Below are positions 8,011 to 34,357 of a DNA stretch of 34,357 bases, in pieces (position 1 is the first letter of the stretch; each line of letters begins with the position of its first letter). Below the pieces are notes generated by a model that saw nothing but the letters and a program-made list of their open reading frames with translations, did not search any database and was not told the origin of the DNA. Origin of the DNA: an uncultured Candidatus Marinamargulisbacteria bacterium (lineage in GTDB: Bacteria; Margulisbacteria; Riflemargulisbacteria; GWF2-35-9); the NCBI GenBank assembly GCA_903897765.1, contig CAIUCY010000221.1, forward strand, positions 1 through 34,357, written 5' to 3'. Position numbers and translations under genes: made by a program.

Positions 8011-9015
8011 TTAAACGAATTCTTCCATTTCACCTGCACGGGCAAGTTGGATCACGCCGGCATCCTCAAGATTACGAATAATATGAACAATGCGTTGTTG
8101 GGTCTCCTCAACTTGTGACATTCTGACCGGACCTTGATAGTTCATTTCCTCTTTCAAGGTATCCACCGCTCGATCAGATAGGTTCTTAAATACTTTTTCC
8201 TTGAGGGGTTCGCTCGCTGTTTTGAGCGCGATAGGCAAGTCTTTCATGTCAATATCTTGCATGATGCGCTGAATGGTTCTATCATCTATTTTCAAGATAT
8301 CTTCAAATACGAACATCATTTGCTTTATCTTGCTGGCAAGCGGTTCATCTATCCCAACGAGATAGTCCATGATCTTCTTTTCTGTCGCTCGATCAACGCG
8401 ATTGATCACATCGACCAATGCCTTAACCCCACCAGAACTAGAAAAATCTTGAACGATATACGCCGCCATCTTATCTTGAAGCACCTTTTCAACCTGCTGG
8501 ATAATATCGGGTGGGGTCTGATCCATGATAGCAATGCGACGCGCCACCTCAGGTTGTATCTCTTCGGGTAAGGACGAAAGGATATTGCCGGCCATAAGGG
8601 GTTCAAGGTGTGCCAAGATCAGCGCAATCGTTTGGGGTTGTTCGTCATGGATAAACCTTACAATATGGGTTGCATCGGCTTTTTCCAAAAACTCAAACGG
8701 TGCCAGTTGGATATTTTTCGACAAATTGGCAATAATTTTCACGGCCTTATCTTTACCCAGAGCTTGCTCCAACACTTCTTGAGCATATTTAACCCCACCC
8801 CGAGAAATATAGCTCTGAGCCTTACTATCATAGTAAAACTCTTCAATGATCGAATCTTGTTCCTTTGGGGATACCTTCGAAATTCTGGCCAATTCCATGG
8901 TCAGATCAGAGACTTCATCTTCATTTAACCTCTTAAATAATTGAACGGTAGAATCTCGACCCAATGCAAGAAGGAGAAGGGCTGCTTTTCGTTTTCCAGA
9001 AATTCGTTCTACCAT
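8011..9015 (-). CDS. fliG: Flagellar motor switch protein FliG
   Basis: C-ring protein that binds FliF with its N-domain and takes torque from the stator with its C-domain. The 334 residues contain all three domains: N (GKRKAALLLLALG, ~7-19), M (DEQPQTIALILAHL, the EHPQR-type motif, ~128-141, here DEQPQ) and C (MMFVFEDILKIDDRTIQRIM, ~233-252, with the charged torque helix). Normal length; ATG at 9015, 3 nt after the fliF stop. Useful as an internal reference for the divergent FliG-like domain encoded at 31151-32869. Confidence 0.97.
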   Translation of the reverse strand: MVERISGKRKAALLLLALGRDSTVQLFKRLNEDEVSDLTMELARISKVSPKEQDSIIEEFYYDSKAQSYISRGGVKYAQEVLEQALGKDKAVKIIANLSKNIQLAPFEFLEKADATHIVRFIHDEQPQTIALILAHLEPLMAGNILSSLPEEIQPEVARRIAIMDQTPPDIIQQVEKVLQDKMAAYIVQDFSSSGGVKALVDVINRVDRATEKKIMDYLVGIDEPLASKIKQMMFVFEDILKIDDRTIQRIMQDIDMKDLPIALKTASEPLKEKVFKNLSDRAVDTLKEEMNYQGPVRMSQVEETQQRIVHIIRNLEDAGVIQLARAGEMEEFV

Positions 9016-9017
9016 CG

Positions 9018-10571
9018 CTAGTCTTCAGACAACCATCGACGAAGGATCTTGGCAAAGACCTCAGGGTCGGTGTGCGCCATATCAATAATAGAGTTCTTCA
9101 TCGCCTGTTTCTTTTGATCATCAGCACTCAATTCAGCATCTTCTAGGGGAATAATGGGAAGAGGGACTTCTCGCGTCGTACCGGCCACTTGATTAACCCC
9201 CCAAGCACCTCCTGATGCAGAGATGGTCGACAAACGACGAAGTTGACGGCGCGCATAAAACACGGTCAGGATCAATAATAAGACCAACCCAACATTTTTA
9301 AAGGTCATCAAGATGGTCTCGTTTTGTTTCATAGACTTCATTTCTTTGGTATCTTTTTCAAGCGAAGTTTTGTCAAAGGGGAACGTCGACAGGGTCAAAA
9401 TATCGCCGCGATTTTTATCAAGCCCTGAGGCAGATGAGATCGCATCCATCAGGTTTTGCTTCTCATCATCTTTAAGTTTCCGATCCAAGATAACGGCGAT
9501 CGATAGCTTTTGAATGGCTCCGGGGGATTTTGTAAAATGTTCAACCCGTTTTGAAAGTTCAAAGTTCCGTGTTTCATCCGTTTTTGAATAATTTGAGTTT
9601 TGCGCGCTATTTTGTCCAGCAGGGATATTCAGATTGGCTGGAGGTGGCGAGTTGTTTCCCTTGTAGCCTTCTTCGACAGCACGTTCACTTCTCACATTTT
9701 GGACATCGGAAGGCAAATAGGTTTCGCTGTCAGAATTCAGCCGATCAAAATTCATGGCCACATTCACCCGAACCACACACGATTTGGCCCCAAAAACATT
9801 CGTTAACATACTTTCGATCTGGAATTGGATCATTTTTTCCACTTTTCGCTGAACCTCAACTTGGGTCATACTCAACCCCGCTTGCATCCCTTCCTCTTCC
9901 GAGTAAGCATACAGCACATTCCCATGTGTATCGACGATCGACACATTCTTTGCGGTCAACCCTTTGACCGAGCTAGCCATGAGGTGGACCAGTCCGTTAA
10001 CCTGTCCATCCGTTAAGGGCTGTGATCCGGCCAGATCAACAACCAACGAGGCTGAAGCCCCATCCTTGTTGTCTTCAGCAAATAACGAATCTTCAGGGAT
10101 CACAATATGAACACGGGCAGCATGGATCTCTTTAATGGTCATGACCGTCCTTGCCAGCTCGGCCTCCATCGCTCGCTGATAATTAACTTTTTGAGTAAAC
10201 TCGGTCGTACCCAATTTAAATTGATCGAAAAGCTCAAATCCCACGGTGCTCACCTTTGGCAATCCCTCGGAAGCCAAGGATACCCGCGTTCCTCGAACAT
10301 TTTTTGCTGGAACAAGGATCGTTGTTCCATCTGCGCCCAATTTATAGGGTATATTTTTTTCCGCTAATTTTTTAACAACATCCCCCGCGTCTTGAGCACT
10401 CAGCCCCGCATAGAGAGTTTGATAGTCTGGTCGAGACCCCCAGATCGAAAGAGCGAACAACGACACAAAAATAACGATACCTAAAAGGACCAACGTCATC
10501 CGTTGCGCAATACTCAAGTCTTTTATGACCGTAACGATCTGTTCGAAAATAACCCTAAAAAAAGCTGGCAT
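9018..10571 (-). CDS. fliF: Flagellar MS-ring protein FliF
   Basis: Forms the MS ring in the inner membrane, the base of the rotor. The 517-residue protein has an N-terminal transmembrane helix (TLVLLGIVIFVSLFALSIW, ~27-45), ring-building domains RBM1-2 (QTLYAGLSAQDAGDVVKKL, ARVHIVIPEDSLF), the RBM3/collar region with a low-complexity loop (~300-330) and KLSIAVILDRKL, a second transmembrane helix (KNVGLVLLLILTVFYARRQL, ~440) and a short cytoplasmic tail ending HTDPEVFAKILRRWLSED that binds FliG. Three bases separate it from flgC, where fliE is often found; fliE is absent here. Confidence 0.97.
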   Translation of the reverse strand: MPAFFRVIFEQIVTVIKDLSIAQRMTLVLLGIVIFVSLFALSIWGSRPDYQTLYAGLSAQDAGDVVKKLAEKNIPYKLGADGTTILVPAKNVRGTRVSLASEGLPKVSTVGFELFDQFKLGTTEFTQKVNYQRAMEAELARTVMTIKEIHAARVHIVIPEDSLFAEDNKDGASASLVVDLAGSQPLTDGQVNGLVHLMASSVKGLTAKNVSIVDTHGNVLYAYSEEEGMQAGLSMTQVEVQRKVEKMIQFQIESMLTNVFGAKSCVVRVNVAMNFDRLNSDSETYLPSDVQNVRSERAVEEGYKGNNSPPPANLNIPAGQNSAQNSNYSKTDETRNFELSKRVEHFTKSPGAIQKLSIAVILDRKLKDDEKQNLMDAISSASGLDKNRGDILTLSTFPFDKTSLEKDTKEMKSMKQNETILMTFKNVGLVLLLILTVFYARRQLRRLSTISASGGAWGVNQVAGTTREVPLPIIPLEDAELSADDQKKQAMKNSIIDMAHTDPEVFAKILRRWLSED

Positions 10572-31150: not shown

Positions 31151-32869
31151 TTATTTGAAAAGCGAATCAATATCATCTTGTTCCATTCTCGTCTCGTCGA
31201 CTCCGAATTCTTTCTGAACAAGATTGATCCGTCCCATTTTCTTTAATACTTTGGCTACTTTTACCACAACCCCTTTGGCATTATCGATCTCAACGGGCGC
31301 ATAGGAATCTTTTCTAAGCTCAATAACTTCGTTTACCATCGCGACCAATCCTTCGGCCAAGCCCATCAACTTTTGTTCTCGATCAGATTCGTCCATATTG
31401 ATCAAAATTAATGCTAGAATATCAGGATCTAGCTCCATAAACACTTTAAGCAACTCTTCTTGTGGAAGGGCAATGACATCCTCAAAAAGAACGATCATAT
31501 CACGAAGCTCAAAAAGCACATCTGGATATTTTTCATGAAGCGCCATAGTGATCTCAGATTTTTTATCAGCTGGGAATCGATCTATTAAGGGAAGCACAGC
31601 ATGCTTACCCCCAATTAAACAGGCGACTTTATCTTTATACAGCTTCTCAAGTTCATAGATTTCCGAAACCGGATGCTCAACCTCGTAGGTAAGAAAGGGG
31701 ATGATCTCTGTTTGTTCTTCTGTTGTAAATCGAGAAAAGATAACCGCACTCATATGTGTCGGGAGGTATGAAATAATAATAGCGACCCTCTGCCAAAACA
31801 AAGCCTGGTCAGCGTCATCGGGTTGGGGTTTGTCTCTTTCAAGCAAATAGGCTAATTTAATGATATTGTTATCCGTTACGAAATCAAAGTAGTCCCGAAT
31901 GGCATTGCTTTCCTTAAAAGTGAGTTCGTCTGATCCTAAACCACCCGCACCCATTAACCCCAACCCTCCAACCAAATCAACGTCGGAACCTCCCACTCCT
32001 CCACCTTGTTTGGAGTCGCCGCCTGATTTATTTACTGAGGCGTCCCCCGCTGCCACCCCTACACTACTTGCTATATTGGTTGCTGAACCGGAGAGCCGAA
32101 ACAGCGCAAACGCAATGCCTCCCATCATTAATATCAATAACGAACCCAAGGCAATGGTGATAATCTCTTTTACGCCAACCTTGCCTGATGAATTAGTCAT
32201 TAACTGTCCAATAAATTCCTTCCCCGATTTGATCTCGCTTTTGATAAACCCTATCGACTTTTCGCTTTCTTTGGCGCTGAGTTCTTGTTGTTGAAGATTG
32301 GTTTGGAGTATAGCGTTAAATTTGTCATCCGAGCTTTTTTGGGTATTGGTGTTGCTATCGATCATGGCCCTGATCAACTGCATTTCAGCTGATTCGCCCC
32401 CACTATTGGAGAACTTTTCTCTCGACACCTTGATCGTGCTGTCTTTATATTGGTCGAAATCCAATATCGACTTTATTTTATCTAAAACGGCTTTTTCACT
32501 AACCCCCGTCGAATTGATCCAAACATTAACTTCATAGTGGCTAAAGACATAGGCGTTCTGAATATTTGCTTTCGATATCTGCTTTATGGGAACCCCTGGC
32601 AAGAATAGGGTTTGGATCTTTTGAGCATTAGCCATATTAACTTTCACTCGAACCTTCAGCGAGATCATAACTTGGTTGGGACCGAAGATCCTGTCGATAA
32701 GACTCTGTGCATCTTTTTCTTTTATTTGTTGATAAGTCAGGATCTCTGCGCCCGAATTAAATTCTAGTTCAACGGGTTTAATGTTAATTGAACTCGTCGG
32801 TTCTGTCGCCAACGACGCATTCACAGTGAAACTGAGGCATATAAAGAAGAGAAGTAGTAGGTTTTTCAT
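31151..32869 (-). CDS. FliF-RBM3/FliG-like hybrid membrane protein (novel rotor-switch-like)
   Basis: 572 residues in five parts. Signal peptide ~1-21. Periplasmic domain ~55-153 matches FliF RBM3: LIDRIFGPNQVMISLKVRVK and VNVWINSTGVSEKAVLDKIK against FliF LTNVFGAKSCVVRVNVAMNF and IAVILDRKLKDDEKQNLMDA. One transmembrane helix (IITIALGSLLILMMGGIAF, ~235-256). Gly-rich linker ~262-315. FliG middle plus C-like domain ~322-550: DKPQ...VAIIISYLP, EKYPDVLFELRDMIVLFEDV against FliG DEPLASKIKQMMFVFEDI. The torque-helix DDRTIQR is replaced by PQEELLK. The extreme C-terminus MEQDDIDSLF resembles the FliM CheY-binding peptide. FliG N-domain and RBM1-2 are absent. Topology equals a FliF-FliG fusion. The ATG overlaps the SLH-TPR stop (TGATG). 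No description of this architecture is known to me. Confidence 0.72.
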   Translation of the reverse strand: MKNLLLLFFICLSFTVNASLATEPTSSINIKPVELEFNSGAEILTYQQIKEKDAQSLIDRIFGPNQVMISLKVRVKVNMANAQKIQTLFLPGVPIKQISKANIQNAYVFSHYEVNVWINSTGVSEKAVLDKIKSILDFDQYKDSTIKVSREKFSNSGGESAEMQLIRAMIDSNTNTQKSSDDKFNAILQTNLQQQELSAKESEKSIGFIKSEIKSGKEFIGQLMTNSSGKVGVKEIITIALGSLLILMMGGIAFALFRLSGSATNIASSVGVAAGDASVNKSGGDSKQGGGVGGSDVDLVGGLGLMGAGGLGSDELTFKESNAIRDYFDFVTDNNIIKLAYLLERDKPQPDDADQALFWQRVAIIISYLPTHMSAVIFSRFTTEEQTEIIPFLTYEVEHPVSEIYELEKLYKDKVACLIGGKHAVLPLIDRFPADKKSEITMALHEKYPDVLFELRDMIVLFEDVIALPQEELLKVFMELDPDILALILINMDESDREQKLMGLAEGLVAMVNEVIELRKDSYAPVEIDNAKGVVVKVAKVLKKMGRINLVQKEFGVDETRMEQDDIDSLFK

Positions 32870-33927: not shown

Positions 33928-34100
33928 TTATCGTTCTAAGATTTTTTTTGTTCAAGCATACGAGATTCATCGAAAGGTTTAACAATAAAATTTATAGCAC
34001 CCTCGTCAGCCTCACAGACTTAATATCCAGCCGCCACCTAGATCTGGGTTAAACGCATGCGAAGAAATGCAGTATCGTCGACAACGAGCACCTTAACCAT
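33928..34100 (-). pseudogene. Decayed CheY-like receiver (second of a tandem pair)
   Basis: The frame opens MVKVLVVDDTAFLRMRLTQI, the start of a CheY-type receiver with the acidic DD pair, then meets TAG, continues VAAGY, TAA, VCEADEG and jumps straight to GAINFIVKPFDESRMLEQ, the C-terminal part with the conserved Lys (VKP). The middle ~60 residues including the phosphorylated Asp are gone. An 8-A run near the end is one base short of restoring the ending KKILER. The start overlaps the preceding stop (TAATG). Gene decay and poor consensus at a contig end are both possible. Confidence 0.75.
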
Positions 34101-34289: not shown

Positions 34290-34357
34290 AGATCGGAAGA
34301 GCACACGCGAACTCCAGTCACGGTTGGACATCTCGTATGCCGTCTTCTGCTTGAAAA
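34290..34357. other. Illumina TruSeq adapter left on the contig end
   Basis: AGATCGGAAGAGCACACG, then GAACTCCAGTCAC, an 8-base index-like GGTTGGAC, then ATCTCGTATGCCGTCTTC and TGCTTG followed by AAAA: the 3' read-through adapter in order, with a 2-base deletion after CACACG. Not biological sequence; it should be trimmed. Confidence 0.97.

Follow-up and report, generated by a model that had tools for sequence, protein, structure and literature searches.

Why should a bacterium that has intact flagellar fliF and fliG genes also encode a single protein that seems to join a part of each? The question is raised by P0001, encoded in a stretch of 34,357 nucleotides (the whole of the DNA analysed here, called the window) from a Ca. 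Marinamargulisbacteria assembly that comprises 250 contigs, totals 2.16 Mb and is 82% complete. A first-pass annotation had read the protein as one chain made of a signal peptide, the RBM3 domain of FliF, a transmembrane helix, a Gly-rich linker and the middle and C-terminal (M+C) domains of FliG, without RBM1-2 and without the FliG N-domain, and this reading is upheld by sequence, profile and fold comparison (Table 1). The canonical genes, said there to be intact at 8011-10571, are indeed found in the same window (fliG at 8011-9015, fliF at 9018-10571), and a second FliF is also encoded in the genome.

The hybrid reading frame and its domain make-up are real. An orthologue with 80% identity is present on CAIWAN010000068, a sister contig from an independent assembly. 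The fusion can therefore not be put down to faulty assembly, and a chimaera as the origin of P0001 is ruled out by its orthologues. Hydropathy gives one transmembrane helix after the signal peptide, and the start of the hybrid gene is overlapped by the stop of the TPR gene upstream. Both CheY-like receivers of this neighbourhood are whole in the sister genome; in the window, the second one, at about 33937-34099, is apparently broken (119 aa when whole), which could be decay or an assembly error, and the contig end at 34290-34357 looks like an Illumina P7/index adapter that was not trimmed off.

Table 1. Features of the hybrid locus, in positions of the window
Feature	Position	Strand	Evidence or remark
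FliF-RBM3/FliG hybrid (P0001), 572 aa	31151..32869	minus	ORF, no internal stop
Predicted signal peptide, residues 1-22	32804..32869	minus	hydropathy; sequence VNASLA
RBM3/beta-collar-like domain, about residues 40-154	32408..32752	minus	model: helix-strand-strand-helix-strand
Transmembrane helix, about residues 239-257, FliF TM2 equivalent	32099..32155	minus	model, hhalign, hydropathy
Gly-rich disordered linker, about residues 275-320	31910..32047	minus	sequence; pLDDT < 50 at 265-323
FliG middle + C-terminal region, residues 326-550	31220..31894	minus	Pfam, PDB, family profile, Foldseek
Torque-helix equivalent, residues 504-519, helix still conserved	31313..31360	minus	
Secreted TPR protein gene, 321 aa	32869..33834	minus	weak TPR matches; directly upstream of hybrid
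CheY-like receiver gene, cut by contig end	34100..34357	minus	neighbourhood member, role unproven

The FliG part is the stronger of the two halves in sequence comparison, by which its identity as FliG M+C is secure. P0001 matches Pfam FliG_C at 3e-8, above the curated cut-off, and the PDB FliG structures 3ajc and 1lkv at about 2e-8 and 9e-8, and a profile of the hybrid family reaches 6.6e-40 against 1lkv. FliG_C is matched by all 34 hybrid family members, and the predicted fold of an orthologue (L049) resembles FliG at 3e-9 in Foldseek. The curated score of the FliG equivalog model TIGR00207 is not reached (34 bits for P0001, 226.7 required). No FliG_N match was obtained for P0001 with Pfam; 3 of the 34 relatives match this domain weakly (best 5.8e-6), in the one that was mapped inside the FliG-M region. 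The first-pass annotation would have been refuted by a merely generic MgtE_N or helical match for this part, which is not what was found: MgtE_N (0.0027) and DUF3826 (0.012) both fall below FliG in strength and were dismissed.

For the FliF part, the lack of any RBM3 match would likewise have counted against the annotation, and a match is obtained at the level of the family. P0001 alone finds nothing FliF-like in Pfam. The FliF domain PF08345 is detected in 9 of the 34 family members (best 3.3e-5), the family profile matches PDB FliF 8z5s at 2.7e-4 over the RBM3-to-TM2 region, and hhalign of the hybrids with the FliFs of the phylum gives 97.2% and 2.8e-11 over RBM3 and TM2. This alignment stops after TM2 and the FliF tail is not seen, the FliG-binding helix not having been sought separately. 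In Foldseek comparison with the FliF RBM3/collar structure 6sd1, the L049 orthologue scores 7.8e-7 and P0001 about 1.6e-2. FliF RBM1-2 (PF01514) was not found in P0001, and the only PF01514 matches of the genome are its two true FliFs. The RBM3/collar and TM2 assignment is therefore secure for the family and weak for P0001 alone. Since the predicted models are of modest confidence (mean pLDDT 71 and 76, pTM 0.36 and 0.40), only their domain folds were used, and not the arrangement of the domains.

The hybrid is bridged to the flagellum by relatives in which the two halves are still separate. Split clusters in G003, G002 and G032 encode an RBM3-type FliF-like protein, a FliG, MotA, MotB and two TPR proteins, with a FliM-like protein in addition in G003 (weak, 4e-4) and G032; G000 and G001 have the same split rotor genes with no MotAB adjoining. 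The split FliF-like proteins match PF08345 (4e-10 in G003, 3e-11 in G032, 5e-12 on contig C241 of G000), lack PF01514 in these same three, and align to FliF through its C-terminal FliG-binding helix, and the FliGs keep N, M and C domains. A tree built on the FliG part places flagellar FliGs, split FliGs and hybrids each in a group of their own. Retention of both FliG_N and the FliF docking helix in the split forms supports the earlier suggestion that the covalent link of the hybrid takes the place of this docking. At the loci of split clusters (L083, L084, L086, L036 and L087), MotAB is present in three of the five and no T3SS genes are seen beside them.

The first-pass annotation had suggested looking for the same architecture in related genomes, and a profile search of the phylum found it in 29 of 74 Margulisbacteria genomes, after exclusion of weak matches in G054 and G065 that look like FliFs. 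Each genome of the window's class carries several such loci, most of them with dedicated MotAB, which agrees with the proposal of an extra system. MotA lies on the hybrid's contig within 4.6 kb in 23 of the 29 genomes (29 loci, 20 of them within 1.1 kb), most commonly in the order TPR-hybrid-MotA-MotB; the other six have no MotA near the hybrid. Across the 74 genomes, 28 have both hybrid and MotA, 1 the hybrid only, 13 MotA only and 32 neither (Fisher p 2e-9, kinship not corrected for), and the sole hybrid genome without MotA is 55% complete. Flagellin was detected only in the eight genomes of the window's class, and 21 of the 29 hybrid genomes are thus without detectable flagellin. Adjoining stator genes together with a mostly undetectable flagellin suggest that a flagellar motor has been re-used in a non-flagellar machine.

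No MotA is found near the window's own hybrid, the contig ending just upstream. On contig C34 of the same genome there is a MotA with 74% identity to the one that adjoins the G003 orthologue; the C34 MotAB pair, unlinked and assigned by similarity, is accordingly the most likely stator of P0001. With the exception of that of L085, the MotAs linked to hybrids fall on a single branch (97/92), separate from flagellar MotA. The linked MotA has its highest scores with the flagellar MotA/PomA/MotP models, those with TolQ/ExbB being far lower. A further MotAB pair, at L098 7635-9254 (G000:C193), has no rotor gene near.

How would such a stator meet the FliG-like part? The residues DDRTIQR, whose loss the first-pass annotation had taken as loss of the torque helix, are not the torque helix; the actual torque residues are found at a later point in the C domain, and they too are lost. 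At the positions of E. coli K264, R281, D288, D289 and R297, true FliGs of the phylum have K, R, E, E and R, and the hybrids mostly V/I, G/S, Q/E, an aromatic residue or V, and S/T (in P0001, G507, E514 and V515 are equivalent to R281, D288 and D289). The tested hybrids keep none or one of the torque charges, except L085 with three. The helix itself is of above-average conservation, with Q or E at position 288 in 34 of 34. Among the linked MotAs, R90 and E98 occur together only in L085, E98 alone in L044 and K90 in a few; P173 and P222 are kept in all, as is D32 of MotB in all readable, correctly started sequences (two were not scored, one unreadable owing to X and one a flagellar MotB with a misplaced start). 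At L084 and L085, charges are kept on both sides. The charge counts of rotor and stator correlate (Spearman 0.88), and the trees mirror each other (r 0.84), but on the tree there is only one independent pair; both figures suffer from this single-lineage weakness and reflect shared history, not proof of repeated coevolution. A rebuilt contact would agree with this co-loss but is not proven by it. Of the earlier doubt about ordinary stator interaction, then, one part stands, in that the charge-charge contact is gone; on the other hand, the linked MotA has likewise lost its charges, so that an altered contact is more probable than the absence of any.

Probably, P0001 serves as the rotor subunit in a non-flagellar envelope machine powered by MotAB. 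A ring in the inner membrane would be assembled from many copies, with one membrane helix per chain and the RBM3/collar domains in the periplasm. The FliG M+C domains would form a cytoplasmic torque ring, held by their own chain instead of by docking of FliG-N on the FliF tail, and a dedicated MotA5MotB2 stator would press on it through a contact, itself inferred, rebuilt without the usual charge pairs. Ion-driven torque would in this way reach the periplasm and might there be handed on by the TPR partner, rotation being an inference as well; the output may be to move the giant surface proteins whose genes lie next to some copies. The support lacks experiment and a model of the complex, and ring formation, MotAB contact, rotation and output are all inferred. 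Giant proteins adjoin rotor genes at L034 (2420-10177, 2,585 aa), L037 (13235-18022, 1,595 aa) and L047 (11151-20000, 2,950 aa) and carry Ig-like/FlgD_ig or Kelch domains; such surface-type proteins are possible loads. The fuller statement, of a rotary machine made from flagellar rotor and stator without export apparatus or filament, with several paralogous forms in one genome and an uncharged contact, is left evenly balanced by the evidence.

The loss of contact charges can also be read as a sign that the ring does not turn, and that a wall-anchored FliG-like platform docks or gates MotAB or passes on small strokes, like ExbBD and TolQR. This is unlikely, and nevertheless a real rival. The chief doubt about rotation comes from G007, in which SLH domains are fused to the rotor chain (4.8e-6 and 5e-5); if they bind the cell wall, they would tether the ring to it and so speak against free rotation, and MotB carries a wall-binding domain of its own. 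However, only these TPR-fused forms have clear SLH domains, those in L039 being weak. The torque helix is still conserved, and the linked MotA is nearest to the flagellar models and not to TolQ/ExbB.

A link to type III secretion is also to be considered. FliF and FlhA are found in nearly all Margulisbacteria genomes, including most of those with a hybrid, so that independence of the hybrid from the flagellar-type T3SS is not proven. Outside the canonical flagellum, the FliG beside that FliF is an N-domain only, without torque domain, and rod, P-ring and export genes accompany this flagellin-less T3SS. Hybrid and MotAB might then be a detached motor of this T3SS, set as an outer ring round its basal body and turning it, a reading that these genes make conceivable and that we consider improbable: more than 30 genomes have neither MotA nor hybrid and nearly all of them have the T3SS, the hybrid loci examined are apart from T3SS genes, G003 carries only two FlhA/FliF sets but four loci with a hybrid plus a split one, and in G058 a hybrid is present with neither FliF nor FlhA found (this genome is only 74% complete). 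At L035 (G000:C47), L107 and L108, the phylum-wide T3SS is seen with FliF, FlhA, FlgI, FlgA, FliE and a FliG N-domain only, and without flagellin; in the more than 30 genomes without any MotA, it would represent a motorless basal body. A decaying flagellar relic without motor role, to which the lost torque charges and divergent sequence could point, is hardly credible, as many families within the phylum retain the TPR-hybrid(-MotA-MotB) arrangement with intact frames, a conserved helix and invariant ion-path residues.

A rotor driven by MotAB outside the flagellum, as favoured here, has partial likenesses among known systems. It shares with the flagellar FliF-FliG rotor and its stator the RBM3/collar and TM2, FliG M+C and the MotA/MotB channel residues, and differs in being one chain with no RBM1-2, FliG_N or visible FliF tail, in having mostly lost the torque charges on both sides, and in the absence of T3SS genes from the clusters examined. 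SpoIIIAG, a sporulation ring protein, is another case of a FliF-like ring-building domain outside the flagellum (Foldseek 5e-3), but no FliG part was matched in it and, to our knowledge, no link to MotAB exists. Nor do we know of a FliG-type rotor partner for ExbBD, TolQR, GldLM or ZorAB of Zorya. These are 5:2 ion motors of MotA/MotB type that serve non-flagellar purposes (PMC9389320, PMC12505986). Against Zorya models, MotB matches ZorB, MotA gives only 6e-4 or nothing, which is no convincing ZorA match, and hybrid and TPR protein give none, so that Zorya defence finds little support in a comparison that did not extend to effector genes among the neighbours. SprA of T9SS gliding was found in none of eight genomes, without a positive-control genome. 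FliF and FliG joined on one chain, with rings that assemble, are known from man-made fusions in the flagellated Vibrio (PMC11481574) and Salmonella (PMC6079021). No report of a protein like P0001 was found in the open-access literature.

In a survey of 2025, 11% of non-motile species had rotor proteins but no filament genes, and it was suggested that rotor parts might have another job (PMC12199754). With the hybrid family, specific genes can be put to this question, for a FliG-type ring that has stators of its own in genomes without detectable flagellin. It is also a natural test of how far torque depends on charge pairs between FliG and MotA, and its split intermediates could help to establish the sequence of steps by which the flagellar motor evolved.
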